DNA from: a virus
Length of the DNA stretch: 20,382 bases
Virus record (IMG/VR): IMGVR_UViG_3300032046_000264
Coordinates: 1 to 20,382 of that record
Strand: one strand, 5' to 3'
A model generated the notes under the pieces. It saw only the letters and a program-made list of their open reading frames with translations, did not search any database and had not been told where the DNA came from. The position numbers were made by a program, and so were the translations under genes. Positions 840 through 18,082 of the stretch are shown piece by piece (position 1 is the stretch's first letter; each line of letters begins with the position of its first letter).

Positions 840-1157
840 ATGATTATTTTTTGGTTATTGTTTGCGCACTGCTTGGGTGATATGGTTTTCCAGACAGAAT
901 TCTTGTTTAAGTATAAGTCGAGTGTTCTGTTCTGTATGCTTAGTCATGTGTTCATTTGGACAGGTTGCATCGTGCTGGTGTTGAGTTGGTTTGGGTTATT
1001 TTCTTATTGGAAACTTATATTTCTGTTTTTGGGCCATTGGGCTGTTGATGCATGGAAGAGTCGGCAGCCGAAAGACTTGGCGCATTTTCGTTATATCTAT
1101 TATGACCAGGGGCTTCATGTGTTGCAGTTAATCATTGTCTGGCTGTTACGGTGCTGA
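840..1157 (+). CDS. DUF3307-family membrane protein
   Basis: The product has about 105 residues and hydrophobic segments at the N-terminus, the middle and the C-terminus. It shows the DUF3307 pattern: AHCLGDMVFQTE near the start, an isolated His in the second helix (LSH), a GHWAVDAWKS segment and a DQGLHVLQL segment near the end. The function of the family is not established; conserved His, Asp and Gln in the membrane suggest an enzyme or metal site, which is only inference. An in-frame ATG at 774 would add 22 hydrophobic residues, but family members start shortly before the HxxGD motif and a TATA box fits a leaderless start at 840. The radical SAM gene follows at once, so the two are likely co-transcribed. 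Confidence 0.75.
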   Translation: MIIFWLLFAHCLGDMVFQTEFLFKYKSSVLFCMLSHVFIWTGCIVLVLSWFGLFSYWKLIFLFLGHWAVDAWKSRQPKDLAHFRYIYYDQGLHVLQLIIVWLLRC

Positions 1158-1159
1158 CG

Positions 1160-2104
1160 ATGGCTGTTATTATTGCTGCTGGTGAGCGTTCAATTTATTC
1201 TCCTGCGCATTATAAGATCCTTCAGCTATTGAAGAGTGATCCGATTGTTATTATTGACATGCTTTTCACATGGGAATTAGCTAAGGCGAAAGAGATTGCT
1301 GTGGCTCAAAATTTTTTTCGTCCTGACCATAAGGTTATTATTGACGGGATCGGCTGGGTGAATTTGGGCAATAAATCTTACTTTGATTGGTCTGAATTGG
1401 ATCGGATGAGCGACTGCTGCCAGCCTGAGAAGATTGATTATCTCGTTACGCATGTAACTGTCGGTTGCCCGAAGCAATGCGAATATTGCTTTTCACAGGA
1501 TTTTCGGTTCCATCAGTATCCCGAGGTTAACCGCAACAAGGTTTTTCTGACGGATGAGAATCTGTTGGCATTGAAAGATGTCGAGGCTATGCTTTATCGG
1601 CTCGGTGAAGAACGTGTCAATGCTAAGGTTGTTTATTATGAATTGATTGCTGGGCTTGACAAGGATTATTTAACTTCTCGCAATGCTGTCGCTTTATATA
1701 AAAATAGGTTCAAGTCTGTCAAGTTTTCTTGGGACAATAGTTATGCTGCAGATGCTAAGAAGGTCTGTATCGCATTGGGGCTGCTTGAAGGTGCTGGGTA
1801 TCGGCTTCGTGATTTGAAGGTCTTCATGCTCTGTAACCATCAGATAACATTCGCCGAGAATCTCAGGAAGCTCAGATATCTATGGGAGCGTGGTGTGCAG
1901 GTTGCTGACTGCTGGTTTCGGGAGGACTATTATTGGCCTGATGCTGAACGCAAACTGTTCAGGTTTTTGTGCAGGCGCATGAACATGCTTATTCGTGCAG
2001 ATTGTCAGGACTTGGAATTGTTCATTTCATATGGTGGGAATGATGGCAAAAGATACAGGCTTGATAGCGAGTTCAAACGCCTGTTTGTCCAATCACATAG
2101 ATAA
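1160..2104 (+). CDS. Radical SAM protein
   Basis: The protein (314 residues from ATG 1160) carries the Cys-x3-Cys-x2-Cys cluster motif CPKQCEYCF at residues 103-111, which binds the 4Fe-4S cluster that cleaves S-adenosylmethionine. The first 100 residues include a Rossmann-like stretch (MAVIIAAGERSIYSP; DPIVIIDMLF). The C-terminal part resembles a partial TIM barrel without obvious extra cluster cysteines. The substrate cannot be told; nucleoside, lipid or peptide modification are all possible. A GTG at 1151 would add three residues and overlap the previous gene by 7 nt; ATG 1160 gives a 2-nt gap. Neither has a clear ribosome binding site, which suggests coupling to the DUF3307 gene upstream. 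Confidence 0.85.
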   Translation: MAVIIAAGERSIYSPAHYKILQLLKSDPIVIIDMLFTWELAKAKEIAVAQNFFRPDHKVIIDGIGWVNLGNKSYFDWSELDRMSDCCQPEKIDYLVTHVTVGCPKQCEYCFSQDFRFHQYPEVNRNKVFLTDENLLALKDVEAMLYRLGEERVNAKVVYYELIAGLDKDYLTSRNAVALYKNRFKSVKFSWDNSYAADAKKVCIALGLLEGAGYRLRDLKVFMLCNHQITFAENLRKLRYLWERGVQVADCWFREDYYWPDAERKLFRFLCRRMNMLIRADCQDLELFISYGGNDGKRYRLDSEFKRLFVQSHR

Positions 2105-2130
2105 AATACATATAATCAATCACCATAATA

Positions 2131-2138
2131 TTTATATA
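2131..2138 (+). promoter_or_regulatory. TATA box upstream of the HNH/terminase operon
   Basis: The sequence TTTATATA is a near-ideal archaeal TATA box. Initiation about 25 nt downstream would start the mRNA near 2160, giving a leader of roughly 105 nt that contains the long hairpin at 2188-2265. Confidence 0.45.
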
Positions 2139-2163
2139 GATAATATATGTATCGAAAGTGTTA

Positions 2164-2184
2164 TGGGCTTAAACCCCCTTTTTT
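2164..2184 (+). terminator. Possible T-tract terminator after the radical SAM gene
   Basis: A short GGG...CCC pairing (GGGCTTAAACCC) is followed by a T6 run at 2179-2184. Archaeal transcription often stops at T-runs. The hairpin is weak, and the same segment may lie in the leader of the next operon, so this is a tentative call. Confidence 0.35.
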
Positions 2185-2187
2185 AAG

Positions 2188-2265
2188 GCCGACTCCAATA
2201 CACGGAATCTTCTTAGTGTTGGTCCCCACCTGCTCGATTTGGATGTCAAGCATATTGGAGTCGGC
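2188..2265 (+). promoter_or_regulatory. Long leader hairpin covering the HNH ribosome binding site
   Basis: GCCGACTCCAATA at 2188-2200 is perfectly complementary to TATTGGAGTCGGC at 2253-2265, a 13-bp stem. Within the 52-nt loop, AATC/GATT and GGT/ACC pairings can extend the structure. The only ribosome binding site for the HNH gene, GGAG at 2257-2260, lies in the 3' arm, 7 nt before ATG 2268. The fold would block translation until opened, so it may be an RNA switch or thermometer, a structured RNA, or a protein binding site. It is not a tRNA: no T-arm motif is present. Confidence 0.6.
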
Positions 2266-2267
2266 TC

Positions 2268-2585
2268 ATGATGGACAAGGAATATGAAGAATACCTGGCA
2301 AGCCCTGATTGGCGACGTGAACGACAAGCACGTATCGAAACATCTGGCGGACTGTGCGAGATTTGTCGCTGGCCGTTAGGATATAAAACACCGCATGTTC
2401 ATCACGAAACTTATGCTAATATCGGGCATGAGTTGATCCCTGATACAAAAGTCTGTCATGCTAAATGTCATGCGAACAAACATCGCAACCGAATAGAAGA
2501 TAAACAGGAGGTAGAAGAGAATGAGTTTGATAACAGAAGAGAAGGAAGAGCGGAGAGCACGGATTTTGAAGGGCGCAGCGTTTAA
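2268..2585 (+). CDS. HNH endonuclease next to terminase
   Basis: The 105-residue protein has an N-terminal YLASPDWRRER helix, then the HNH metal-finger core: CEIC at residues 30-33, HVHHETY at 43-49 and CHAKCHANKH at 63-72. This is the small phage-type HNH nuclease usually found beside the large terminase, where it can nick DNA and is needed for packaging in some phages. The last 30 residues are acidic and charged and overlap the next gene by 65 nt. The ATG at 2268 is followed directly by a second ATG at 2271; the first has GGAG 7 nt upstream. That site lies in a hairpin. A free-standing homing HNH is less likely because of the terminase context. Confidence 0.88.
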   Translation: MMDKEYEEYLASPDWRRERQARIETSGGLCEICRWPLGYKTPHVHHETYANIGHELIPDTKVCHAKCHANKHRNRIEDKQEVEENEFDNRREGRAESTDFEGRSV

Positions 2586-2811
2586 GATTCGTGTGTCTGA
2601 TAAACAGGAAGCTACCTGGAAAGGACAGTTTGATAAGAAGCCGAAAAAGACCGCTGACGAGATCCTTGCAGCAGTGCAGGCACGAATGCGCAAGTTTCAG
2701 TCTGGCAGCACAAACGGTAAAGTTTGGGACGAGGATTGGAAAGCATTGAGCGCTAAAATATTAACCTTAGTGACAGGCAAATCTAAACAGCGGAGGCTTA
2801 TTTCATCATGA
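2521..2811 (+). CDS. Small charged protein of unknown function
   Basis: A 96-residue basic protein with a strong ribosome binding site (AGGAGGT at about 2507-2513) before its ATG. The first 65 nt overlap the end of the HNH gene in another frame. It is rich in Lys, Glu and Arg and mostly helical by composition, with a KKPKKTADEIL segment in the middle. Its place between HNH and the large terminase would suit a small terminase or packaging accessory subunit, but there is no clear helix-turn-helix and no family is recognised. The stop overlaps the next start as ATGA, implying translational coupling. Confidence 0.65.
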   Translation: MSLITEEKEERRARILKGAAFKIRVSDKQEATWKGQFDKKPKKTADEILAAVQARMRKFQSGSTNGKVWDEDWKALSAKILTLVTGKSKQRRLISS

Positions 2812-2942
2812 ACCAAGATATGAAAGAAGTGCAGAAGCTTGCCGAAGAGAAGGGTTATGAATTAGTGCGGTATGACGAACATAACATAAAAAAGGATGAA
2901 GAAATCAAGGACAGGTTTCTGTTCATCTTCGAAAAGAAGTGA
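2808..2942 (+). CDS. 44-residue protein of unknown function
   Basis: A very small gene starting in an ATGA overlap with the previous stop and with GGAGG at 2792-2796. The product begins MNQDMKEVQKLAEEKGYEL and ends FLFIFEKK; it is charged, with a predicted helix followed by strands. The overlap, the ribosome binding site and the tight fit between neighbours support it as real. The function is unknown. Confidence 0.55.
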   Translation: MNQDMKEVQKLAEEKGYELVRYDEHNIKKDEEIKDRFLFIFEKK

Positions 2943-2953
2943 GGTTGATACCC

Positions 2954-3103
2954 ATGAATATCCTGACAATTACGGTGCTGGACGAGATAACAGGCAACGG
3001 TGTTGATGCCACATTCGTTGTAGATAATGATAACAGGATTGTGCGCAAGCATGTTGAGCGGATTACAAAAGAAGATTGGCAGCAGCAACAGAGGGAAGAA
3101 TAA
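2954..3103 (+). CDS. 49-residue protein of unknown function
   Basis: A small gene preceded by TGAGGT (2940-2945) about 8 nt before ATG 2954. The product begins MNILTITVLDEITGNG and ends in EDWQQQQREE. It looks like a short beta-strand-rich domain with a charged helical tail. It fits exactly between the stop at 2942 and the next start at 3105. No family is recognised. Confidence 0.55.
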   Translation: MNILTITVLDEITGNGVDATFVVDNDNRIVRKHVERITKEDWQQQQREE

Positions 3104-3104
3104 C

Positions 3105-3335
3105 ATGACAACAGCAGAAGAAGAAAAGACAATAATCAATACGAGGGAAACTTCTGTGCAAAGATTATTAAGTTCAGAGAACTTAAAGAACGTGTTCAAG
3201 GAAATATTTAGCAACGCTGTGGTCATATCAACAGAAGTCAAGCGTGGCGCAAAAAGCTCGGCAAATATTTATGTCAATAGGAAATATGAAGGATTAAATG
3301 CGACGGTGATAATATGGACGGAGAAGACGAAGTAA
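3105..3335 (+). CDS. DUF2080-like / AbrB-like small protein
   Basis: The start at 3105 is chosen because GAGGG lies just upstream (3091-3095) and the previous gene stops at 3103; an earlier in-frame ATG at 3027 lies inside that gene. The 76-residue product ends with ISTEVKRGAKSSANIYVNRK and then YEGLNATVIIW, which resembles the DUF2080 'transposon-encoded' family and AbrB-like swapped-hairpin domains (K-x-G-x-S-x-x-I-Y-V-P-x-x-x-x-G-x-x-V-x-V). DUF2080 proteins are common in archaea and small enough to act as DNA-binding regulators. The usual Gly-Asn before Ser is altered here to Ala-Lys-Ser, so the match is moderate. Confidence 0.6.
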   Translation: MTTAEEEKTIINTRETSVQRLLSSENLKNVFKEIFSNAVVISTEVKRGAKSSANIYVNRKYEGLNATVIIWTEKTK

Positions 3336-3544
3336 CAAACAACAGGCCACAATTCAATGAGCCGAATTTCAGGCTAAATGTTAAGCGGAACTATAAAGGC
3401 GATTTCGGGTTTGAATACACCATCAAGGGCGACACTATCCTGCAGATACAGCAGAATGATTTTGATATGCAGCTGCATCTTTACGACCAGGGATTGATAG
3501 GCAAGAAACCGAAAAAATCGGGTGAAGTTAGTGCGAACACTTGA
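3314..3544 (+). CDS. 76-residue protein of unknown function
   Basis: This gene overlaps its upstream neighbour by 22 nt and the terminase start by about 23 nt, which fits a tightly packed viral operon. The acidic N-terminus (MDGEDEVTNNRPQF) is followed by a beta-rich part with the segments NFRLNVKRNYKGDFGFEY and LQIQQNDFDMQLHLY. No ribosome binding site is clear; translation is probably coupled. It could be a small terminase-associated or regulatory protein, but nothing in it decides this. Confidence 0.55.
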   Translation: MDGEDEVTNNRPQFNEPNFRLNVKRNYKGDFGFEYTIKGDTILQIQQNDFDMQLHLYDQGLIGKKPKKSGEVSANT

Positions 3545-4958
3545 TGAGATTTATCAAGGCATGAATGAGGTCGAGTTTGCGACACGGGCAAGAGAATATA
3601 AATTCTTCACTGAGCGTGTAATCGGCTGGGAAGCGCAACCGTTCCATATAGAATGGATTGACATGGCGATCAAGAACAAGCGTGTTTCTATCCAAGCGCC
3701 GACAGGCTTCGGCAAGACATCAATACTTGGCGTGGCATTCTGTTTATGGATCGGGACTAACCAGCGTGATAAAGAGATGTGCATTGTTTCTAAAGCCATG
3801 CATCAGTCTACAAAGATACTTAATCAGATACGGACAATTATTGAGGATAATGAGTTCCTGCGTGACTTGATCCCGAAGAACAGGCCGATGGGTAATTGGT
3901 GTTCAGCTACATTCATGGAATTATCAACGGGCTGTAACATTTTTTGCAGGCCATACTCAGAAAATATCAAAGGGATCCATGTTGATTATCTGCTCGGTGA
4001 TGAGGTAGCATCATACGATGATTATTCTATTTGGTTTCGTTTTGTGGTAACACGAGTCAACGCCAAGAATGGCACTGTCGTAGCAATATCAACACCAGAT
4101 AACATTGCTGACCTGATGCAAGAATTACAAGCTAATCCTGAATATATTGCCAAGACATACCCTGCAATCATGAACGGTAAATCTATCTGGCCGTCACGGT
4201 TCCCGCTTAATAAGCTTGAGCGGATTAAGAATGAGATAGGTTTGGCAGCTTTTGAGCGTGAATATATGTGTAACCCGAGAGCAGAAGTAGAAAATGCCGT
4301 GTTCCCGCCACACCTGCTCACTGAATGTTTTGCATACACTGAAACATTCACTCAGGCGCCAAGGCAAGGTTTCACGATCATTGGCTGTGACTTTGCGATA
4401 GCTTCCGGGCCTCGGGCAGATTTTGACGCATTCATCGTGATTAATAAGTTCGGCAGGAAAGCTACTATCTTGCATGGCGAGACGCATCGTGGGTTTACTA
4501 TTGCAGCCAAGATTGCCAGGCTGGAAGAATTATACTTGACATATGCCTATAAAATTCGTGATGAGACTGCTAAAGAAGAACAAACTGCTTCAATGATTAG
4601 GTTTGTAATTGATCCGAGTTCAGTAGGTCAGGCTGTCTATGATGCGCTCAGGAGTAAGGGTTATCCTGTTGAGGCAGCTAAATTCGATGCTTTTAATCGT
4701 AATGCCATGATAATAAATCTTCGGCAGATGATTGAGAACTGCGATTTAGTGATCCCGAGGAATGCTGATGATCCAATGTGTATGACTTTTACGGATAAAC
4801 TTATTAAGGAGTTAATCAGCATGATGGAGACGAAGACTAAGAGCCAGCAGATTTCCTACCAGTCACGAGCACCGCATGATGATACTGTGATGGCATTGGC
4901 TATGGCATGTCATGGTGTTGCACAACAAAAAGAATTCTTGGATTGTATGGCTTTCTAA
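3522..4958 (+). CDS. terL: Terminase large subunit (TerL)
   Basis: This is the ATP-driven motor and nuclease that packages viral DNA through the portal. With GTG 3522 as residue 1 the length is 478, normal for the family. The ATPase has Walker A APTGFGKTS (59-67, Lys65), a Walker B ending in LLGDE (Asp160, Glu161) and a coupling motif near VVAISTPDN. The RNase H-like nuclease carries the three acidic sites: GCDFAIASG (Asp290), RFVIDPSS (Asp364) and PHDDTVMA (Asp453/454). A GTG at 3531 has a better-placed site (GGTGA at 3521-3525) and may be the true start. It overlaps the preceding gene. All catalytic motifs are present. Confidence 0.96.
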   Translation: MKLVRTLDEIYQGMNEVEFATRAREYKFFTERVIGWEAQPFHIEWIDMAIKNKRVSIQAPTGFGKTSILGVAFCLWIGTNQRDKEMCIVSKAMHQSTKILNQIRTIIEDNEFLRDLIPKNRPMGNWCSATFMELSTGCNIFCRPYSENIKGIHVDYLLGDEVASYDDYSIWFRFVVTRVNAKNGTVVAISTPDNIADLMQELQANPEYIAKTYPAIMNGKSIWPSRFPLNKLERIKNEIGLAAFEREYMCNPRAEVENAVFPPHLLTECFAYTETFTQAPRQGFTIIGCDFAIASGPRADFDAFIVINKFGRKATILHGETHRGFTIAAKIARLEELYLTYAYKIRDETAKEEQTASMIRFVIDPSSVGQAVYDALRSKGYPVEAAKFDAFNRNAMIINLRQMIENCDLVIPRNADDPMCMTFTDKLIKELISMMETKTKSQQISYQSRAPHDDTVMALAMACHGVAQQKEFLDCMAF

Positions 4959-4960
4959 AA

Positions 4961-5035
4961 TGGGATAGCCAAGATTTGAACTTGGATCTTTCGGTCTGGA
5001 GCCGATTAGGTTGCCTGATTGCACCCCACTATCCC
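4961..5035 (-). tRNA. tRNA-Trp (CCA)
   Basis: The minus strand folds as a full tRNA: acceptor GGGATAG/CTATCCC, D-stem GGGT/ACCT, anticodon loop CTCCAGA with anticodon CCA and U33, and T-arm CCAAG-TTCAAAT-CTTGG. The discriminator is A. No CCA tail is encoded; TTTT follows directly and may end transcription. Position 27:43 is an A:A mismatch. It follows the terminase stop with 2 nt between them on the opposite strand. Confidence 0.93.
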
Positions 5036-5070
5036 AAAAATATTACGGATACATAATATATTACGGAATC

Positions 5071-5084
5071 CCTAATATATTAGG
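5071..5084. repeat. 14-bp perfect palindrome between two tRNAs
   Basis: CCTAATATATTAGG is its own reverse complement. It sits in the AT-rich 77-nt spacer between the two tRNAs. Nearby ATACATA (5049-5055) and TATGTAT (5092-5098) form outer arms, and ATATTACGGA-like sequence occurs on both sides of ATACATA. It may hold the TATA box of the tRNA-Trp gene or be a dimeric protein binding site. Confidence 0.5.
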
Positions 5085-5112
5085 AATTTCCTATGTATAT
5101 ACAGGATATACA

Positions 5113-5185
5113 TTGCGGTGGCAGGACTCGAACCTACTTTCTCTGGCTCATGGGGCCAGCGGGTTATCCAATACCCTACACCGCA
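5113..5185 (-). tRNA. tRNA with CAT anticodon (Met, or Ile2)
   Basis: A complete 73-nt cloverleaf: acceptor TGCGGTG/CACCGCA, D-stem GGGT/ACCC, anticodon stem CTGGC/GCCAG, loop CCCATGA, T-arm GTAGG-TTCGAGT-CCTGC, discriminator A, no CCA. The anticodon is CAT. Position 33 is C instead of the near-universal U. The three-GC anticodon stem signature of initiators is absent (31:39 is C:G), so it is an elongator Met or an Ile tRNA whose C34 is modified to agmatidine. The first pair is U1:A72. Confidence 0.9.
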
Positions 5186-5215
5186 GTTTAACCGTGCCGA
5201 ATTCGACACCTTTAA

Positions 5216-5288
5216 AGCCGCCAGCCGGATTTGAACCGACAGCCTTGGAGTTACAGGCTCCTCGCTCCACCGATTGAGCTATGACGGC
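5216..5288 (-). tRNA. tRNA-Thr (TGT)
   Basis: A complete 73-nt cloverleaf: acceptor GCCGTCA/TGGCGGC with one wobble, D-stem GCTC/GAGC, anticodon stem GGAG/CTCC, loop CCTGTAA, T-arm GTCGG-TTCAAAT-CCGGC. The discriminator is U, as known for archaeal Thr tRNAs. No CCA is encoded. The 27:43 pair is A:A and position 33 is C. The TGT anticodon reads ACA Thr codons. It is first in the minus-strand tRNA cluster. Confidence 0.88.
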
Positions 5289-5809: not shown

Positions 5810-7063
5810 ATGAGAACGATAGAAGAGGTATATTTAGTGGGGAATGCTGTCCCTAAATTCGGGCCTGCAAGTATTCCGTCTGGTGAAACTGGCGAACCTA
5901 CTTCGCAAAAAACTACACCTACCGTAGTCAGAATATTGCAACAGGAATTAGAACTCACCTATATGCATAACCCGACAATCTTTAACGGTATCAATAAGAT
6001 TGTCCAAACAGTTATGTCAGCAAAACATGAGCTTTCTTGTGTTGATCCGAAAGTTCTCGAATATTTCAATGCATTTATTGAAAATCTCGGTAATTCTGGT
6101 TCAGAAATATCATGGGAGGAAATGCTTACTCAGATATATAAATTTCAATGCATTTATGGGAAAGCATTCATAGAAAACATCTGGAATAAAAAAGGCAATA
6201 GGATTGTTGATTGGGATATCATTGATCCTAAAAAAATGGATTATGTCAAGGACAGTCAGCAGAGAATTGCACTCGATAAGTTTGGCAGGCCGTTAGGTTA
6301 TGTTGAAATCCTGCCTTGGGGCTATAATGCACCAGAGCAAATAATTCCGCCAGAAATCGCACAGCTTATCACATTACCGCCAAATTCTATTTTCTTATAT
6401 CCGAAAAAAGTAGCACAGGTCAAATTATTTACTGTGGGTGACGGGTTTTATCCTATAGGCTTGATAGAGCCAATCTATCGAACATCGCTCAGGAAAATGA
6501 ATATAGAAGAAGCGCTTGCTAATGCTATTTGGAGGCACGGGTTCCCGATCATAGCAGCTGCGGTTGGCGATGCCAACCATGAGCCGACACCAGCGCAAGT
6601 GCACTCCATCTTAGAAAAACTGCGTGATGTAAGTTATAAGCAAGAGATTTCTTATCCATATTATTATGATTTAAAGTTTCTTGAATCCAAGAAGGCTGAA
6701 AAGCTCAAAGAGCATCTCGATTATTTCAGGGAACAGGAGATAGCAGGATTGGGTATCCCTAAGCCATTCGCCACGGGTGGCGGAGAGGCAACTAATAGAG
6801 CAACCTTGGGAAACCAGAGCGGAATGTTTCAGCTTACCTTAAGGGACCTTATAGAACGAACTGCAGAATCTATACGCAAATATATGTTCAAGCCAATTTG
6901 CGAATTGGAAGGGTTCAAAGCAATTCCGAAACTTACTTGGGATGTAGTCGGCACAGATGAACTTGACAAGAAAGCCAAACGATTAGTGGCATACATGAAA
7001 GCTGGCGTGATCACACCCGAAGAAGTTAGGGCATTTGTAAAAAGCATTGAGAAGTTGACCTAA
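5810..7063 (+). CDS. Portal protein
   Basis: The 417-residue protein fits a phage portal, the dodecameric ring at the capsid vertex through which DNA enters and leaves. Typical features are the N-terminal HNPTIFNGINKIVQTVMSA helix, the ISWEEMLTQIYKFQCIYGKA segment with 'YGKAF' before the wing strands, WDIIDPKKMDYVKD with the clip-like LGYVEILPWG strand, and a long C-terminal stem region ending in AGVITPEEVRAFV, the usual 'G-V-I-T-x-x-E-x-R' helix. The ribosome binding site GAGGT lies just before the ATG. It sits between terminase and protease/capsid, as expected. DUF935/HK97-like portal families are the likely relatives. Confidence 0.88.
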   Translation: MRTIEEVYLVGNAVPKFGPASIPSGETGEPTSQKTTPTVVRILQQELELTYMHNPTIFNGINKIVQTVMSAKHELSCVDPKVLEYFNAFIENLGNSGSEISWEEMLTQIYKFQCIYGKAFIENIWNKKGNRIVDWDIIDPKKMDYVKDSQQRIALDKFGRPLGYVEILPWGYNAPEQIIPPEIAQLITLPPNSIFLYPKKVAQVKLFTVGDGFYPIGLIEPIYRTSLRKMNIEEALANAIWRHGFPIIAAAVGDANHEPTPAQVHSILEKLRDVSYKQEISYPYYYDLKFLESKKAEKLKEHLDYFREQEIAGLGIPKPFATGGGEATNRATLGNQSGMFQLTLRDLIERTAESIRKYMFKPICELEGFKAIPKLTWDVVGTDELDKKAKRLVAYMKAGVITPEEVRAFVKSIEKLT

Positions 7064-7066
7064 AAT

Positions 7067-10000
7067 ATGGAGATAGTATTTCTCGGGACAGGGCCGAATA
7101 AGAAAGTAGAGAATGATGGTAGAACAAGAAGCTCGTTGGCAGTGAATACAAAAAATACCCCATTCTTAATAGATTGCAGTCCAGATTTTTCTGAGCAGGT
7201 CGAAAGAGAAAATATCAATGACATCAGTTTTATTCTATTCACGCATGGGCATAATGATTGCACTGGCGGGATCCCACAACTACATACTTGGATGAAAAAG
7301 AAAGATATGGATTCCATGCCTGTCTTTTTGGAGCCTGCAACATGGAAACGGATCAAGGAAGATTATAAAAATGTCAGTTTTTTATCGCCCAGATTTGTCC
7401 AGCCTGATGTAGCTACCAATGTTAATGAAATCCATATAATCCCGTTCCGAGTGGAGCATTCTATCCAACCAGGCTATCCTGCAGTCGGATACAGGATAGA
7501 TGATGGATTAGTCTATTCAGAAGATGTCGGGGATATTCCAAAAGAGAACATGAAATATTATTCAAATGCCGATGTTGTTATTTTTGATGCAGCAATGTGG
7601 TTCGGTAAAGAAATCAAGGGACACCAAAATACAGCAGACGCATTGAAATTTGCCAAAGATATCAAAGCTAAAAAATTTATTCTGATGCAAGCAGGTCATA
7701 CTTATCCTGCACAATCTGATGCTGAGGCACAGATAAACCAATATTGGAAAGAGATAGGCGGAGCCGACTCTGAGATTATACTTGCTCATGATGGCCTGCG
7801 CCTTAACATTAAAGAAAATGTTTCTCAAATTTTAAGCGAAGCAAGAGAAGGAATTTATATGGTAAGACCGCACGGAAGCATGATTTATAGTGGCGATAAA
7901 AGTCTTATCATCAAAGCCAAAAATTACAAGAATAAAATCGGCAAATTACTTTATCTCATTGAAGATTCATTATGCTACGGTATCATCAGGCTCAAAATGC
8001 CAGACAAGATTGGTGTAACGGAATTTAATGAGTTCCAGAAAAAACATCAAGTGACCGATGCCGAGAGAACCAAATGGTGGCCAAATAAAGAAGTCCTATA
8101 TTCTTATCCTTTCGATGTTATTGAAAGGTTCCCTAAACCAAAACGAGTGAGCGTCCCGCAAGGTGTCCAAACATTCGTCAAAGATTTTGAATTTTTGGTT
8201 GAGATTGAGCAGGAGATGATACATAACATCAAAGAATATGATCCTGCAAAATTAAATATTGACGTTCTAAAGGATGATTGGCGGATTGCGCACGCATGGT
8301 ATTCTTCTATCAAGAATGGCAGGAAAATGATCCATTCGCTTGAAGATGTGCTCCATATAGCAAGACTAATTTATATGGAACTTAAGAAACGTGGGATAGA
8401 ATTTCATCCAGATAGGATGAAGCCATATTCCTTAGAATTATTCAGGATAGTATCTGGTGGAACAGAATTATCCGATTTATCAGATCCTAAATTATTGGAT
8501 GAGTTGCAGGATAAAATAATCATTAAAGATTTTATGTCGGTTTGTGGCTCATATGCTATAGGAAAACAAAAACCGAATGATATTGATGTGCTTATCCGAA
8601 TGACCGAGCCAACCGATTATATAAAACGTGCTGTAGAGGTTAGATTTTTGAAAGATATTGGCTGGTCGGATAAAGTGCATTTCATTTGGGGAGATCCAGA
8701 AGGCCCGCATGATACATATATACCTATATATGATTTACAGCTTACCAGGATAAAGCCGTTAAAGATAGTCAAGATGGAGGAAGAAGTCCTTATTTTAGCT
8801 GGTGCAGCACCATTCTTTCCGATGAAACCGTCAAAACGATTTTACCAGATTGATGAAGCGCTTGGTTATTTATTCCCGAATGGTAAATACGCTATCGAGA
8901 AGAAATATAATGGGTTCCGTGCAGTCCTGATGAAATCGGGCAGTGTAGTTAAGATATACTCTGACCAGAAAAGAGATATCAGCAAACATTTCCAGACTAT
9001 TTTGAATGAGGCCAAGGAATTATCGAATAAGGATTTTGTCTTGGATTCCGAGATTGTCTATAAAGATGGCGGGCGTTCTGAGATATTAAAATATGTGATA
9101 GGGAAATCCGAGTTGGATGATAGCAATATCGCATTGCATTCTTTTGATTTGATTACTTTTGATGGCAAGGACATAACAGATTTAGCATGGTATGAGCGCA
9201 AAAGTATGCTGCATAAACTTAATTTTACTAAGCATATTAAAGAAGTGGAAAGCATGATGGTTGACACTCCTGAGCAGGCAAAAAAAGCGATCACGTTTGC
9301 ACGAAACCTAAATGGTTCCGAAGGAGCTATGATTAAACGTTATGAGGGAAAATACACCAAGAACAGCCATTCTGACGCTTGGATAAAATTCAGGAACGAA
9401 GATTCATTGATTGTTCGGGTAATGAATGTTTCAAACAAGGAAGGTGGGAATAGTTACCTAATGGGGATAGAGGCGCCACCAAAAGCTAATGCGAAGTATG
9501 TTGATAATGGCTATCTGATTTTGGGGAATACGTTTGTTAGCAAAGAGCCTGCTAATGAAGGCGACCATCTGGAAGTTAGCATTGAAGAAGTTTGGAGGCA
9601 TACTTATCCTAAAAATGATGATACTATTAGGTATAGCATCCATAAACCGAGAGTGATCGGTAAGAGTAGCAAACCATTAACTAATTGGCAGCATTTAGAT
9701 GATCTTGCAGTTTCTAAGGGCGAAGAAGTGATAGAGAACGAGGAAGAATGCGAGGAATGCTCATTAACAGTTGACGAATTAGAAGGAATTATTGTTCAGG
9801 AAATGACCGTAGAGAAGCGTGGCGGATACTGGTGCGTGTTGCATGGCCACCCAAAAAAGCCGGGCAGCAAAACAGACAAGCCGTTCGGGACTCCTATCAA
9901 ATGCTACTCAATAGCCCAATATGGTGATGATGTTGCAAGGCGCAAGGCTTTTGCGATGCACTATGCTATCCAGAAAAGTGAGGGTTTGACAGAAGGTCCC

Positions 10001-10693
10001 ACCATAACAGCACTGATCCCTGATATTCAGGGTAAGGTTTGGAAACCGAGATTGATTAAAGGCCCGAAGAAGTTGATAGAAGAAGAACTTGATAATGAAG
10101 TCAAAGGGGATATTTCTAATTTTCCTGACAGGATGCAGCGTGCTTTCAAGGCTGTAAAAGAATCGGGTAAATGGCTGCCGTATGTAATGCAATGGCATTT
10201 ACGGGGCACGGAATCCCTGCATACTGATTTGAGAATGGATGCTGGTGAAAACTTGGAAGGATTTACTTTGTTCACTCCGCCATCAACCGCTAAACCTGAC
10301 CTTTTAGATTCAGACCCGCATAACATAAGAGGGACAATCAAGGTTCCACAGCCTAAAGAATGGCTGACCGTGCAGGGCGGGATGCAACGTGGTGCACCAG
10401 GGACTACAACAGGCCATAATGCCTATTTTGCTATAGTAAGCAAGGGTAAATATAGACCGATTGAGGTATCCGATCATAAGATAGTCTTGGAATTTAATTC
10501 TGATATAGGTGCGACCAAACAGGTCAAACCAATAAATCCTGATGATGCTTCTGCTATTGATGGGCTTAATAGCAAGCTCCCTGATAAGCTTAAAGCAATT
10601 AATGGCTGCTTTTCGTATCATGTTGCGCATATTGGCGATAGGCATATCATGTTATTCGATAAATTAAAAGAGTGTCCTAAAAATGAAGGGTAG
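7067..10693 (+). CDS. Five-domain DNA end-processing and ligase fusion protein
   Basis: One 1208-residue chain, starting 3 nt after the portal stop. Domains: (1) about 1-245, metallo-beta-lactamase fold like PhnP/RNase Z, with THGHNDC (His60, His62, Asp64; Cys65 where His is usual), then VEHS, YSEDVGD and GHQNTADAL; (2) about 262-375, an unnamed domain (PHGSMIYSGDKSLIIKAK to WWPNKEVLYSYPF) found in phage structural proteins; (3) about 430-580, pol-beta-type nucleotidyltransferase, GSYAIG...DID (Gly494, Ser495, Asp505, Asp507); (4) about 590-870, ATP-dependent DNA ligase with Lys613 in KYNG, LDSEIV (659-664), EGAMIK (752-757), WIKFR (772-776) and an OB fold; (5) about 1035-1170, LigD-like 3'-phosphoesterase, QWH...LHTDLRM (His1044, His1052, Asp1054, Arg1056). 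CxxC at about 903-906 and a phage-type linker precede (5). Likely roles are trimming, filling and sealing DNA ends; in virion or packaging is inferred. Confidence 0.88.
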   Translation: MEIVFLGTGPNKKVENDGRTRSSLAVNTKNTPFLIDCSPDFSEQVERENINDISFILFTHGHNDCTGGIPQLHTWMKKKDMDSMPVFLEPATWKRIKEDYKNVSFLSPRFVQPDVATNVNEIHIIPFRVEHSIQPGYPAVGYRIDDGLVYSEDVGDIPKENMKYYSNADVVIFDAAMWFGKEIKGHQNTADALKFAKDIKAKKFILMQAGHTYPAQSDAEAQINQYWKEIGGADSEIILAHDGLRLNIKENVSQILSEAREGIYMVRPHGSMIYSGDKSLIIKAKNYKNKIGKLLYLIEDSLCYGIIRLKMPDKIGVTEFNEFQKKHQVTDAERTKWWPNKEVLYSYPFDVIERFPKPKRVSVPQGVQTFVKDFEFLVEIEQEMIHNIKEYDPAKLNIDVLKDDWRIAHAWYSSIKNGRKMIHSLEDVLHIARLIYMELKKRGIEFHPDRMKPYSLELFRIVSGGTELSDLSDPKLLDELQDKIIIKDFMSVCGSYAIGKQKPNDIDVLIRMTEPTDYIKRAVEVRFLKDIGWSDKVHFIWGDPEGPHDTYIPIYDLQLTRIKPLKIVKMEEEVLILAGAAPFFPMKPSKRFYQIDEALGYLFPNGKYAIEKKYNGFRAVLMKSGSVVKIYSDQKRDISKHFQTILNEAKELSNKDFVLDSEIVYKDGGRSEILKYVIGKSELDDSNIALHSFDLITFDGKDITDLAWYERKSMLHKLNFTKHIKEVESMMVDTPEQAKKAITFARNLNGSEGAMIKRYEGKYTKNSHSDAWIKFRNEDSLIVRVMNVSNKEGGNSYLMGIEAPPKANAKYVDNGYLILGNTFVSKEPANEGDHLEVSIEEVWRHTYPKNDDTIRYSIHKPRVIGKSSKPLTNWQHLDDLAVSKGEEVIENEEECEECSLTVDELEGIIVQEMTVEKRGGYWCVLHGHPKKPGSKTDKPFGTPIKCYSIAQYGDDVARRKAFAMHYAIQKSEGLTEGPTITALIPDIQGKVWKPRLIKGPKKLIEEELDNEVKGDISNFPDRMQRAFKAVKESGKWLPYVMQWHLRGTESLHTDLRMDAGENLEGFTLFTPPSTAKPDLLDSDPHNIRGTIKVPQPKEWLTVQGGMQRGAPGTTTGHNAYFAIVSKGKYRPIEVSDHKIVLEFNSDIGATKQVKPINPDDASAIDGLNSKLPDKLKAINGCFSYHVAHIGDRHIMLFDKLKECPKNEG

Positions 10694-10844
10694 AAAGCTC
10701 GGTCAGATTGATGTTACAATAGACGAAATCCAGACAATTGCTACAATGACTGCGGATAATTTTACACGAAGACAGATAGCCGAAGCGATAAATCGGTCAC
10801 AGGATACTGTCTGGCGCTATCAAAAGAAGCATAACTTATTCTAA
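10683..10844 (+). CDS. 53-residue helix-turn-helix protein
   Basis: The start ATG 10683 overlaps the previous gene's end by 11 nt, so translation is likely coupled. The C-terminal half is a classic helix-turn-helix: FTRRQIAEAINRSQDTVWRY, with the turn at INRS and a recognition helix of QDTVWRYQKK. The size and fold would fit a tiny transcription regulator, or the DNA-binding part of a small terminase. It stands right before the promoter of the protease-scaffold gene, so it may control that promoter; this is inference. Confidence 0.75.
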   Translation: MKGRKLGQIDVTIDEIQTIATMTADNFTRRQIAEAINRSQDTVWRYQKKHNLF

Positions 10845-10892: not shown

Positions 10893-12104
10893 ATGAACCA
10901 AGACATACCCATAGAAGAGCTATATTCTCATCCTATTGTGCAGCAACTTCTGGATAAGCTCAAGAAAGAAAATAATAATAAAGACGACCTTGAAAATATC
11001 AAGATTCCGTATATTATCAAGGACAAGACTCTTATGAGCCCTGGTGTCTGGAACAATTATTTCTATAGTTCAGAAGAAATCAACAAGGCATTCTTAGGGA
11101 CACCATGGGATAACAAGGAAATCCGCTCATTATTTCTGGACCATGCCGATAAAAGTTCAAGGGAATGGATTGGCGAAATACAAAACCCGAGATTGCAAGG
11201 CGATACGCTTATCGGAGATTTAGTTGTGGTTGACAAACCGACAGCACAAAAACTTGCTTATGGTGCAAAGATGGGCATATCTCCAAAAGTTCATGGTTCA
11301 GAAGATAACAGCAAGATGATTGATTTTAGATTCGATAATTTCAGCGTGGTTATTAATCCTGCAGTTAAGACAGCATATATCAATAATGCGCTGATTGATG
11401 AAGTTGGCACGCAACTTAATATAAACAAACCAGAGGAGGTCACTAAAATGGCTGATAAAGAACAACAGAAGATGGCCGATCAAGCAAAGGAGAAGCCAGC
11501 TATTGATGAGATGTCAGAGCTGATGGAAACTTTGGGCACGATCGAAGTAAAGAATGCCAGTGTAGGCGAGATTGCTAAAAAGGCCAAAGAGATCCGCAAA
11601 GAAGGCGAGAAATGGTCGGATGCAATCCAGCGGGCTGCTAAGATGATGTCAGAGGCAGCACTTGCAGCAGTAGCAGACGAAGAGATCAAGAAAAAGAAAT
11701 GTGAAGAAGAGGAATTGGCAAAGAAGAAAGAATACCCATATCCTGAAGAACAGATGGCTGAACAGGACATGGTGAAACAGATACTAAAACTTGCAGATTT
11801 GCTGAAAAAGAAGTATCCTGCTCCAGAGGAGAAGATGGCTGCTAAAACTCCAGAGGAAATAAAGGCAGAAGAAGACAAGGCAGCAGCAGCGAAGGCAGCA
11901 GAGAACAAGAAACTCGAAGAAATGGGCAATACAATAGCAACACTTTCTGAGAAACTACAGAGCGTGGAAAAGAAATTGAACGAGCCAGCTGACAGAGCAA
12001 CCCTCAAGACAGCAGAACTTTCAGCAATGGACACCGAGAAACTTGTCTCAGCAGATCCGGACTCAGCATTTTTATCCATACTACAAAGGATGGGAGGTCT
12101 ATAA
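10893..12104 (+). CDS. Prohead protease fused to scaffold
   Basis: The 403-residue protein has two parts. Residues about 35-170 fit the phage prohead protease fold (XkdF / S78-like, herpesvirus-assemblin type): GVWNNYFYSSEEIN, LFLDHADK with the likely catalytic His84, GDTLIGDLVVVDKPTAQKL and GAKMGISPKVHG with the likely Ser130. Residues about 186-403 are Lys/Glu/Ala-rich, coiled-coil-like and without Trp-rich core, as in scaffolds. The protease cuts the scaffold and other head proteins during capsid maturation. It precedes the major capsid gene, as in HK97-type phages. A strong internal start at 11448 may give the scaffold alone. Confidence 0.87.
   Translation: MNQDIPIEELYSHPIVQQLLDKLKKENNNKDDLENIKIPYIIKDKTLMSPGVWNNYFYSSEEINKAFLGTPWDNKEIRSLFLDHADKSSREWIGEIQNPRLQGDTLIGDLVVVDKPTAQKLAYGAKMGISPKVHGSEDNSKMIDFRFDNFSVVINPAVKTAYINNALIDEVGTQLNINKPEEVTKMADKEQQKMADQAKEKPAIDEMSELMETLGTIEVKNASVGEIAKKAKEIRKEGEKWSDAIQRAAKMMSEAALAAVADEEIKKKKCEEEELAKKKEYPYPEEQMAEQDMVKQILKLADLLKKKYPAPEEKMAAKTPEEIKAEEDKAAAAKAAENKKLEEMGNTIATLSEKLQSVEKKLNEPADRATLKTAELSAMDTEKLVSADPDSAFLSILQRMGGL
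11448..12104 (+). CDS. Probable separate scaffold from an internal in-frame start
   Basis: Within the protease-scaffold gene, GGAGGT at 11435-11440 stands 7 nt before an in-frame ATG at 11448, which would make a 218-residue protein starting MADKEQQKMADQ. That is exactly the scaffold part without the protease. The same nested arrangement is known for lambda C/Nu3 and herpesvirus protease/assembly protein. The ribosome binding site is better than anything at the 10893 start, so the scaffold could be made in excess over protease. Confidence 0.65.
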   Translation: MADKEQQKMADQAKEKPAIDEMSELMETLGTIEVKNASVGEIAKKAKEIRKEGEKWSDAIQRAAKMMSEAALAAVADEEIKKKKCEEEELAKKKEYPYPEEQMAEQDMVKQILKLADLLKKKYPAPEEKMAAKTPEEIKAEEDKAAAAKAAENKKLEEMGNTIATLSEKLQSVEKKLNEPADRATLKTAELSAMDTEKLVSADPDSAFLSILQRMGGL

Positions 12105-12105
12105 A

Positions 12106-13044
12106 ATGAAACAAACAGTCCAAGAATTGGCGAGTGGAAACACTACTACGGACACAGCTGGATTCAACTCCATTGCAACAGGTGTAGTTGGCAAAATCTG
12201 GCTTAAGGAATTGCTTGCAGCAGCTAAGAAAAAGATGTTTTTTGAGCAGTTTGCATACGCAACAACAGCACCGAAAGGCGCAAAGGATGTCGCAGTGCCG
12301 TTATACACGACAAACCTTGACTTTGATATAACGACAACACAGGCAACAAAGAGAACCAAGACACAGATAAACAACCTAACTACAGTTGTTTTCTCACCAA
12401 CCACACAGAAGATGGGCGTAGAAATCTCAAAGGATGTTGTAAGGACATCACAGATTGATACCGTCAGGTTCGCAAGAGAACAGCTGGTCTATGACGCATC
12501 ACTGAATATTGATGTGGCATTCGATACAGTCTTGAAGACAGCAACAACTAACACACCGCTCTGGGGCGGGGGTAGAGCATCAGAGGGCGCTCTGGTCGCA
12601 GGAGATACCTTAGATACTGATCTGATTGCTAAGGCAAGCAGAGTCCTGAAATCTAACGGATGGTATCCTGAACCTGATAAGCCATTTGTCTTGTTCCTAC
12701 CAGCAGTGGCAGAAGAAGCACTATTGAAGGACTCACAGTTCGTCAATGCAGCAGAATACGGCAGTAATGAAGTCGTGATGAATGGTGAAATCGGCAGATA
12801 TCTTGGGATCAAGGTAATCTCTACTGAGCAGTGTTCAGCAGGAACATTCAACTCATTGGCAGGCCATTATTGCTACCTACTGAAAGGCAAGGTTGCATAC
12901 GGGATCTGTTATGGAGAAGAGCCTACACTTGACTTTGAGTATCTGAAAGATGAAGCAACATATAATGTCTATTTGGACATGTGCTATCAGTGTAAACTGC
13001 TACAGGACACAGCAATCCAGGTATTGAAAGTATTGGATGCTTAA
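12106..13044 (+). CDS. Major capsid protein, HK97 fold
   Basis: Start ATG 12106 has GGAGGT 7 nt upstream and follows the scaffold stop directly; a longer in-frame reading from 12043 overlaps the scaffold gene and is rejected. The 312-residue product shows features of HK97-fold capsid proteins: an N-terminal helical arm (WLKELLAAAKKKMFFEQFA), a long spine-like segment, an A-domain stretch AKASRVLKSNGWYPEPDKPF and the NGEIGRYLGIKVISTEQC motif near the end. It assembles the icosahedral shell. T-tracts follow the gene, which may set expression of downstream genes. Identified by motif pattern and position. Confidence 0.88.
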   Translation: MKQTVQELASGNTTTDTAGFNSIATGVVGKIWLKELLAAAKKKMFFEQFAYATTAPKGAKDVAVPLYTTNLDFDITTTQATKRTKTQINNLTTVVFSPTTQKMGVEISKDVVRTSQIDTVRFAREQLVYDASLNIDVAFDTVLKTATTNTPLWGGGRASEGALVAGDTLDTDLIAKASRVLKSNGWYPEPDKPFVLFLPAVAEEALLKDSQFVNAAEYGSNEVVMNGEIGRYLGIKVISTEQCSAGTFNSLAGHYCYLLKGKVAYGICYGEEPTLDFEYLKDEATYNVYLDMCYQCKLLQDTAIQVLKVLDA

Positions 13045-15622: not shown

Positions 15623-18082
15623 ATGGAAGACGAAGAGAATGTAACTATGAAGGGCGGACAAAATTATCAGGTTGCTGCACCCAAAACAAATGATTTCTTG
15701 GCGGGGCAAATCAATCCGACTGCTGCTGCAGAATATATCCAGACAAGGCGTGGCATCGGGATTTGTATCATAACCAGAGGCACTGTCCCTATCAAATGGA
15801 GTATGCATCTGAACGAGGTTTCTAAATGTTTTCCTGGCGGGCTGTTCTGGAAATTTCTTATTGTTGAACGTATGAGCTGGGCTGCTGCAAGAAGCGAATG
15901 TGTCAGGAAATGCCGAGCCAATAATTTTGAATGGCTAATGTTTGTTGATGATGATGTTTTCATACCTAAAGATTGCTTGCAGAAGATGATGGCTGCTGGC
16001 AAGAAAGTTATCTCGGGAATATACTGGACAAAGACCGAGCATCCTGCACCAGTCATATTTGAAGAATTTGGTAAAGGCCCGATGTTTGAGTTCGAGCCTG
16101 ATAGGATAATCCCGATTGCTGGGAGCGGGCTCGGCTGCACGCTTATCCATATGGACGTGTTCGATAAATTCGATGAAAAAGGATTAGCTTATTTTGTTGA
16201 GAATTGGGTGTTTGTTGATCCGTTGGGCCAGAAGATGAAATGCCCAATAGGTGAAGACCATTATTTCTTTTTAAAAGCTAAAGAAGTCGGGTTCCAGCCT
16301 TATGCGCATACGGGTATCCTATGCGACCATTATGACTATAAAGAGGACAAATTCTTTCCTGGCGAGGATATTGTAAGAGATTTCTGTAAAACGCAATTGA
16401 AGAAAGCTGGCAGGGAAGACATTGTAAAAGATTATGACCATAGGATGCTTGATACCGAAAAGAAGACTATTGTTATCTATAACGATGTTGTGCCATTCGC
16501 TGGTGATGAAATCGCAAGGCGTGGTGTGGGTGGCAGTGAAGGCGACATCATCTATCTTGCACGGGAATTTGCACGGCTTGGCACATATAATGTCCGAGTC
16601 TATTGCCGATGCCTGCGTGAAGGCTTCTATGATAACGTGTTATACAGGGATAACAAGAAAATGTTTATCGATATGCAGAAGATGCAGACAGATTTATTTA
16701 TCAGTTCTCGAAACCTGCAGCCATTCTTTGATCCAGATTTTAAACAGAAGCATAACGTGGCTCAATCCATTTATTGGGCGCATGATATCTCGGAAGATCC
16801 AATGTCGTTGGGCATGGAACGTGCAATAGTAGACAAGATTGTGGCATTGACAGAATATCATAAACAGGATCTTATCAATGCGTTCAAATTAGACCCGAAG
16901 AAAATAATTGTTATTCCGAATGGTGTTGACATCAATAGGTATAAGGATAGGGCAAACATATCCAAGATTCATGGCAAATGCATCTATTCTTCAACGCCAT
17001 ACAGAGGGTTGGATGTTTTGCTCAGGATATGGCCTACTATCAGGCTACGTGTGCCTCATGCCGAATTGTCCATTTTCAGCAGCATCAAAGTATATGGCGA
17101 GTTCTTTGATGATTCTCCATGGGAAGACTTGTATGCTTATGCTAAGAGGCTTGAAGGGATTAAATATCATGGGTCAGTGAAGCATGACAGGCTGGCAAAA
17201 GAACAGATGGAAGCCCAGCTTTGCTTATATCCTAACCATTTCCCTGAAACATGTTGTGTGACTGCTATGGAATGCCAGACTGCAGGGACTCCGATCATAA
17301 CAACTGATAAAGCGGGATTAAGAGAAACAATTAAGCCTAACTGTGGCATTTTGATTGGCGGAGAACCGCATAATTCTGAATACCAGCAGGCTTTTATTGA
17401 TGCAGCCGTGGACTTGCTTATCGATCCTGAGAAGTATGCTCTAATGCAGCAAGAATGTTATAAGCATGATTTCAGTTGGGCAACTTTGGCAAAGCAATGG
17501 CTCAGTAAATTCTTGAATCTGCAAGAAATAGTGCCGATACAGGATTGGGATAAAGTCTACATAAAGGAGCTTGAAAGGCAACAATTCCACATAGACAATG
17601 CAAGATTCAACTATCTCAAACAGTTTGTTAAGGGCCAGCATGACAGGGTGCTTGATATCGGCTGCGGATTGGGCGCATTCCCGAGGTTCTTAAGACAAGC
17701 GTTCCCTAAGATTGAATTATGGGGGCATGAATTATCCATGTTTGCACAGGACCATAATCGGCAGAGCGATAAAACTATCCTGTTTGCGAACCATCCGATT
17801 GAAGCCAAAGATTATGAAGCAGAATATTTCGATTTGATATTCTGTCAGCATGTGCTACAACATGCACAAAAGCCTGATGAATTATTGGCTACCTGCAAAA
17901 GATTAATAAAGCCCCACCATCTGGATGGTAAGATAGTGGTCGTTGTCCCGAAAGCATGGAATAATAATCTTGTTGCGCTTGCTGAAACCTTGAATTTTGA
18001 GATTGAGAATCACGGGATCACCGGCACTGCAGACCCGGATATCATAGCAGTAATCCAGTTCAATCCACCAAAATTAATATAA
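15623..18082 (+). CDS. Two-glycosyltransferase plus methyltransferase fusion
   Basis: One 819-residue protein with three enzymes. Residues about 40-265 are a GT-A (GT2-like) glycosyltransferase; FVDDDVF (107-113, Asp109-111) is the metal/sugar-nucleotide site. Residues about 280-640 are a GT-B (GT4-like) glycosyltransferase with GVGGSE (301-306), PNGVD (432-436) and the EX7E motif FPETCCVTAME (Glu542, Glu550). Residues about 660-815 are a class I SAM methyltransferase with VLDIGCGLG (676-684). Together they could build and methyl-cap a short glycan. It has its own promoter and ribosome binding site and lies between virion genes, so virion proteins or host surface glycans are likely substrates. 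Fusions of this kind are not typical of phage structural modules. Confidence 0.9.
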   Translation: MEDEENVTMKGGQNYQVAAPKTNDFLAGQINPTAAAEYIQTRRGIGICIITRGTVPIKWSMHLNEVSKCFPGGLFWKFLIVERMSWAAARSECVRKCRANNFEWLMFVDDDVFIPKDCLQKMMAAGKKVISGIYWTKTEHPAPVIFEEFGKGPMFEFEPDRIIPIAGSGLGCTLIHMDVFDKFDEKGLAYFVENWVFVDPLGQKMKCPIGEDHYFFLKAKEVGFQPYAHTGILCDHYDYKEDKFFPGEDIVRDFCKTQLKKAGREDIVKDYDHRMLDTEKKTIVIYNDVVPFAGDEIARRGVGGSEGDIIYLAREFARLGTYNVRVYCRCLREGFYDNVLYRDNKKMFIDMQKMQTDLFISSRNLQPFFDPDFKQKHNVAQSIYWAHDISEDPMSLGMERAIVDKIVALTEYHKQDLINAFKLDPKKIIVIPNGVDINRYKDRANISKIHGKCIYSSTPYRGLDVLLRIWPTIRLRVPHAELSIFSSIKVYGEFFDDSPWEDLYAYAKRLEGIKYHGSVKHDRLAKEQMEAQLCLYPNHFPETCCVTAMECQTAGTPIITTDKAGLRETIKPNCGILIGGEPHNSEYQQAFIDAAVDLLIDPEKYALMQQECYKHDFSWATLAKQWLSKFLNLQEIVPIQDWDKVYIKELERQQFHIDNARFNYLKQFVKGQHDRVLDIGCGLGAFPRFLRQAFPKIELWGHELSMFAQDHNRQSDKTILFANHPIEAKDYEAEYFDLIFCQHVLQHAQKPDELLATCKRLIKPHHLDGKIVVVVPKAWNNNLVALAETLNFEIENHGITGTADPDIIAVIQFNPPKLI

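Follow-up and report, generated by a model that had tools for sequence, protein, structure and literature searches.

A viral family of single-chain nucleotidyltransferase-ligase-phosphoesterase proteins encoded among head genes, with a possible role in genome repair

A single gene located among the head genes of a tailed virus encodes a 1208-residue protein in which MBL, ASCH, helical hairpin, pol-beta-type nucleotidyltransferase (NTase), ATP-dependent DNA ligase with a probable OB fold, and LigD-type phosphoesterase (PE) domains follow one another in this order. The gene lies in the window analyzed here, that is, the entire 20,382-base virus record IMGVR_UViG_3300032046_000264 (positions 1-20,382). 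It belongs to an apparently undescribed viral family whose core, judging from domain profiles, is NTase-ligase-PE, with MBL, ASCH, uracil-DNA glycosylase (UDG) and DNA methylases as interchangeable additions. We give about an even chance to the possibility that the window protein is a head-associated DNA-repair multitool of the polyvalent type that would act on gaps and blocked ends in viral DNA.

Domain architecture of the window protein

The gene (7067..10693; this and all domain coordinates below are on the plus strand) is one uninterrupted frame of exactly 1208 codons, in agreement with the original prediction, which was made from the sequence alone and postulated a single chain of MBL fold, an unnamed domain, NTase, ligase and PE, encoded between portal and protease. 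Profile searches and structure prediction, the checks proposed there, support the MBL, NTase and PE assignments, albeit to different extents.

The N-terminal MBL domain (residues 1-250, 7067..7816) matches PF12706 over residues 33-207 (3e-21) and is closest to PhnP-like Lactamase_B_2 proteins, with 6b9v (1e-10) and related "beta-lactamase-like" structures among its PDB matches. In the alignments, metal site 1 is present (H60, H62, H131, D153); at metal site 2, both His ligands are gone, replaced by C65 and Q208 in the window protein, and the window clade likewise lacks both histidines. The complete set of HxHxDH and distal His ligands that characterizes dinuclear MBL hydrolases of the PhnP/RNase Z kind is accordingly not found in the window MBL. 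This domain had been described as an added nuclease; given that site 2 lacks both histidines, we reject a DNA nuclease role for it. His is kept at each of the two site-2 positions in 13 of 22 relatives, L015 being an intact example.

The unnamed domain is an ASCH domain. Residues 261-372 (7847..8182) adopt the ASCH fold in the AF2 model (pLDDT about 90 or more), for which Foldseek retrieved TTHA0113 (2dp9; 1.3e-6) and ZmASCH (5guq; 5e-5), and PF04266 matches the corresponding region of the relative L011. Downstream is a putative helical hairpin (residues 398-441, 8258..8389; model helices with pLDDT about 85) that, by alignment, recurs beside the NTase in relatives. Both MBL and ASCH seem to be accessory parts that bind or cleave nucleic acids or nucleotides.

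The pol-beta-type NTase (residues 476-582, 8492..8812; GS...D505xD507...D556) is the weakest of the domain calls. The segment matches NTP_transf_2 at 9e-4, just short of the curated cut-off (2e-4 for the best relative), and this profile matches 7 of 22 relatives; DNA_pol_B_palm reaches 6e-3, below its cut-off. All 44 matches in a PDB profile search are X-family polymerases, none of them significant (best E 0.18). The residue pattern of X-family polymerases, GS...DxD plus a third Asp, is present, and in the enlarged family set, the two Asp residues of DxD occur in 116 and 119 of 119 sequences, respectively, and the third Asp in 90. Because the confidence of the predicted model is low in this region, we make no claim on the NTase fold.

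The adenylation domain of an ATP-dependent DNA ligase (residues 594-785, 8846..9421; motif I K613-Y-N-G) is recognized by PF01068 with 1.4e-24, as anticipated, and its closest matches are LigD-type and archaeal DNA ligases. The residues expected of this enzyme class are in place, namely, the motif I Lys (109 of 115 relatives), motif IV Glu (111 of 115) and motif V Lys (109 of 115); the KxDG motif reads KxNG in the window protein and 45 relatives. The region past the ligase core (residues 786-870, 9422..9676), conserved in most relatives, is a probable ligase OB fold.

The C-terminal domain (residues 1033-1208, 10163..10690) is a LigD-type 3'-phosphoesterase domain that keeps the HxR and HxDxR motifs. 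A single-sequence Pfam search with the window PE yielded no match, and the LigD-like assignment draws on three other comparisons: the PE family profile matches the archaeal LigD PE 3p43 (1e-6), PF13298 matches 9 of 18 PE family members, and all 7 Foldseek matches below 0.001 for the window PE model are LigD PE structures, which places the model within this fold (best match 3p43, 1.8e-6, TM 0.77 by target). The Mn ligands His42, His48 and Asp50 are found in 136-138 of 141 sequences, that is, in every sequence ungapped there, and Arg52 likewise in every sequence ungapped at that position. The position of the catalytic His84 holds His in 4 of 140 sequences and mostly Gln or Glu in the rest, and that of Tyr88 holds Trp in 140 of 141; in the window protein, these residues are Q and W. 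Both His84 and Tyr88 are essential in the PaLigD phosphoesterase (PMC8656161). Thus, of the 3' clean-up step proposed originally, the metal ligands and Arg52 are kept and the two essential residues are gone; 3' clean-up by the window PE is plausible.

Head-gene neighborhood

The ATG of the multidomain gene lies 3 nt past the stop of the portal gene (5810..7063, plus strand; PF06074, 1.8e-12), and the terminase large subunit is encoded farther upstream (3522..4958, plus strand; PHROG 38, 1.8e-42). Downstream, also on the plus strand, are a 53-residue helix-turn-helix-like ORF (10683..10844) that overlaps the 3' end of the multidomain gene, a putative prohead protease/scaffold (10893..12104), and the major head protein (12043..13044, start probably near 12106; PHROG 1357, 8.6e-17). 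The predicted domain order and location among head genes are supported, with the portal upstream and the major head protein downstream. With regard to the placement between portal and protease, the portal is secure, and the protease is assigned by position, as a conserved neighbor, the gene at 10893..12104 having no significant family match, XkdF included. Promoter and terminator scans gave nothing above chance.

The small helix-turn-helix-like ORF, flanked by the ligase and protease/scaffold genes, is conserved: similar short ORFs occur in L004 (9613-9819) and L005 (6661-6855), and additional genes are inserted at this spot in L005 and L006. Three tRNA genes (Trp, Met, Thr; 4960-5288) lie between terminase and portal on the minus strand of an otherwise plus-strand head operon. 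Elsewhere in the window, a radical SAM-like protein (1151-2104, plus strand; PHROG 9298, 8.5e-12) adjoins a DUF3307 protein, and an 819-residue protein with glycosyltransferase (GT2-like, GT4) and SAM methyltransferase domains is encoded downstream of the head genes (15623-18082, plus strand).

Spread, architectures and selection in the family

A single-sequence scan with the window protein recovered one locus in viral contigs and none in genome contigs, and one with the ANMV-1 homolog recovered no locus, the query being too narrow where an NTase-ligase alignment succeeded. The latter detected 26 loci in IMG/VR, and two PE scans detected 76 and 72 partly overlapping loci. Altogether, the family is found in more than 100 IMG/VR contigs, in ANMV-1 and in archaeal MAG contigs. 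Among the loci examined from a second genome scan, L032-L036 and L039 belong to the family; L037, L038, L040, L043 and L046-L049 were set aside as ordinary DNA ligases. Also excluded was L028, a small ligase-like ORF devoid of other domains.

Our census comprises 148 distinct complete ORFs with PE, or with NTase plus ligase. Domain profiles detect NTase in 105, ligase in 104 and PE in 129 of these ORFs, shares that are biased by the queries, along with XkdF in 65, ASCH in 36, UDG in 30, MBL in 24 and Dam in 12. NTase and ligase are both present in 79 of the 129 PE-bearing ORFs, and in several contigs PE is a separate gene adjoining the NTase-ligase gene. Judging from L005 and L007, which keep NTase-ligase without OB and PE, the full domain set is not obligatory. 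The MBL-ASCH-NTase-ligase-PE order, for which a search of viral metagenomes had been suggested, recurs in L004, L008, L009, L012 and L015; L011 shows it as well, with Dam inserted. In L020, L013, L011, L019, L022 and L032, the same chain carries extras, among them Dam, C5 methylase, UDG, Rossmann methyltransferases and other domains; Pfam confirms XkdF, UDG, D12 and C5 methylases in sampled members, the C5 methylase in L019. Many relatives are fused at the C-terminus to XkdF, a phage serine protease (PF14550). Its matches in L013, L020, L021 and L027 reach 5e-32, and in 62 of the 65 ORFs that contain it, it is located at most 60 residues from the C-terminus; in the window, it is not fused.

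The gene directly upstream matches a portal profile in the window, ANMV-1, L004-L009, L011 and L012, and so does an upstream gene in L010, L016 and L020. In the archaeal MAG loci L033, L034, L036 and L039, the upstream gene is likewise a portal match. Because the family occurs beside the portal in MAG contigs of Methanosarcinales and Methanophagales, its hosts probably include archaea.

When five family members were compared by tblastn with 50,697 deposited phage genomes, the core was matched, among the matches listed, in ANMV-1 alone, the remaining ones being single-domain. Searches of open-access papers yielded no description of this NTase-ligase-PE family. The original prediction knew of no viral protein that combines these domains, which seems right for described proteins; the core itself is present in ANMV-1 and many IMG/VR contigs.

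The family is under strong purifying selection, with dN/dS of 0.007-0.043 in NTase, ligase and PE for the close pairs L009/L010 and L023/L025. Far from being disrupted in most relatives, the catalytic residues of NTase and ligase and the PE metal ligands are conserved.

Relationship to known systems

The ANMV-1 protein AJP62006 (KP703175), annotated merely as "ATP-dependent DNA ligase", resembles the window protein in combining NTase, ligase and PE in a single chain directly downstream of the portal. It differs in its length of 866 residues, the lack of MBL and ASCH in front, and an additional PE-like C-terminal segment, and the two proteins are about 23% identical. In ANMV-1 (L003), the portal (1913-3193) is annotated "MutT-like phage hydrolase" and matches Phage_portal_3 at 3e-22; the gene after the ligase (5868-9368) encodes a 1166-residue protein of cysteine-rich repeats that is similar to head-morphogenesis proteins at its C-terminus.

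Bacterial LigD likewise unites an ATP-dependent ligase and PE in one protein, and the window PE has the fold seen in the PE structures of PaLigD and archaea. In the window protein, however, a pol-beta-type NTase takes the place of the primase-polymerase, for which there was no Pfam or NCBIfam match, in line with the original comparison to a LigD with a different polymerase; the gene belongs to a viral head operon, the PE lacks His84 and Tyr88, and no Ku was found in 15 virus records, some of them fragments. The ASFV repair set (AsfvPolX, ligase, AP endonuclease) is also a virus-encoded combination of a minimal PolX and a ligase for short-gap repair (PMC5330486), but consists of separate genes, in a eukaryotic virus, and has no PE; the comparison is limited by the non-significant similarity of the NTase to PolX. 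AsfvPolX fills gaps without the thumb and 8-kDa domains (PMC5330486). By analogy, the window protein would work like LigD and the ASFV set, yet it is not a LigD because of the missing primase-polymerase, the absence of Ku from the 15 records and the altered PE site.

Polyvalent proteins combine many unrelated enzyme domains per chain, occur in portal-terminase phages and are likely packaged (Iyer et al. 2017, PMC5512222). The window protein fits this description, with domains for several activities in one chain encoded among the virion genes of a portal-terminase virus, but differs in that its core domains are those of DNA end repair. In the main text on polyvalent proteins, LigD, XkdF and ASCH domains go unmentioned, as does any DNA-ligase module in these proteins, and few of them are reported in archaea (PMC5512222).

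Possible functions

The head-operon position together with the XkdF fusions in relatives suggests that the protein is synthesized along with the head and taken up by the prohead. The UDG-carrying relatives suggest short-patch base excision repair, and the combination of enzymes suggests that short gaps and blocked ends are repaired. Under this scenario, the protein would be made together with the head proteins, enter the prohead either alongside the protease or by way of it, and act on the DNA of the virus itself, within the particle or upon entry; blocked 3' ends would be cleared by PE, a short gap filled by the minimal NTase, for which AsfvPolX is a precedent, and the DNA sealed by the ligase. 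We infer from the XkdF fusions in relatives that packaging and ejection, both raised originally, become more likely. The repair reading has to contend with the non-significant polymerase matches of the NTase, the PE without His84 and Tyr88, the lack of a protease fusion in the window protein, and a downstream gene that is not demonstrably XkdF. More tentatively, and with some doubt, the family might be a virion-borne, single-chain excision and end-repair machine of tailed viruses of archaea and bacteria, processed by the head protease or delivered through it and ejected along with the genome, that removes blocks at 3' ends (uracil too, in relatives) and then fills and seals the DNA before host repair can act, using a new PE active-site set (Trp and Gln/Glu for Tyr88 and His84).

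The family members are the only ATP-dependent ligases in all 15 virus records searched, one per record, and could therefore serve replication. A late, intracellular replication and repair ligase with fused helper domains, never packaged and placed in the head operon by accident of genome modularity, would also be compatible with the retention of NTase-ligase without PE in L005 and L007 and with the extra genes between portal and ligase in L010. We consider this rather unlikely: diverged virus contigs, archaeal as well as bacterial, preserve the same slot between the portal and the head genes, where one would expect a free replication gene to change its place, and the C-terminal XkdF fusion is common.

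Still less probable is an injected counter-defense protein, in which MBL would destroy nucleotide signals, ASCH would cut or bind RNA, and NTase-ligase-PE would mend the damage that defense nucleases inflict on nucleic acid, possibly RNA, of the host or the virus. The Lactamase_B_2 affinity of the MBL, the weak match of P0002 to the anti-Pycsar enzyme Apyc1 (0.018), the likeness of the ASCH fold to ZmASCH, the RNA_ligase match of the L011 ligase (3e-5) and the methylase modules, which suit anti-restriction, all agree with such a role. The dinuclear MBL site is broken in the window clade, however, though intact in 13 of 22 relatives, the ligase finds its best matches among LigD-type and archaeal DNA ligases, and the UDG modules point to DNA repair.

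An NHEJ role like that of LigD, in which the protein would circularize the ejected genome or join its ends, we regard as very improbable despite the LigD-like ligase and PE: no LigD-type primase-polymerase domain was found, and excision repair is a better fit to the UDG fusions. Ku (PF02735) is absent from all 15 records, several of them fragments, and NHEJ with a virus-encoded Ku is rejected. Finally, a structural or scaffolding protein with relic enzyme domains, which the loss of MBL site 2 in the window clade, the missing ligase Lys of L027 and the head-protease fusion in relatives might evoke, is hardly credible given the more than 90% conservation of the NTase DxD, ligase Lys and PE metal ligands and the dN/dS of the family.

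Implications

If the repair reading is true, injected polyvalent proteins would come to include genome-repair proteins and to occur in archaeal viruses, a group in which they are reported to be scarce, and the LigD phosphoesterase fold would acquire a viral lineage marked by active-site residues of its own. Enzymes that unite glycosylase, NTase, ligase and PE in one chain could, in addition, serve as reagents. The question whether tailed viruses carry in-particle repair enzymes to survive environmental DNA damage becomes testable: the viruses with this family may repair their genome by enzymes made as part of the particle.
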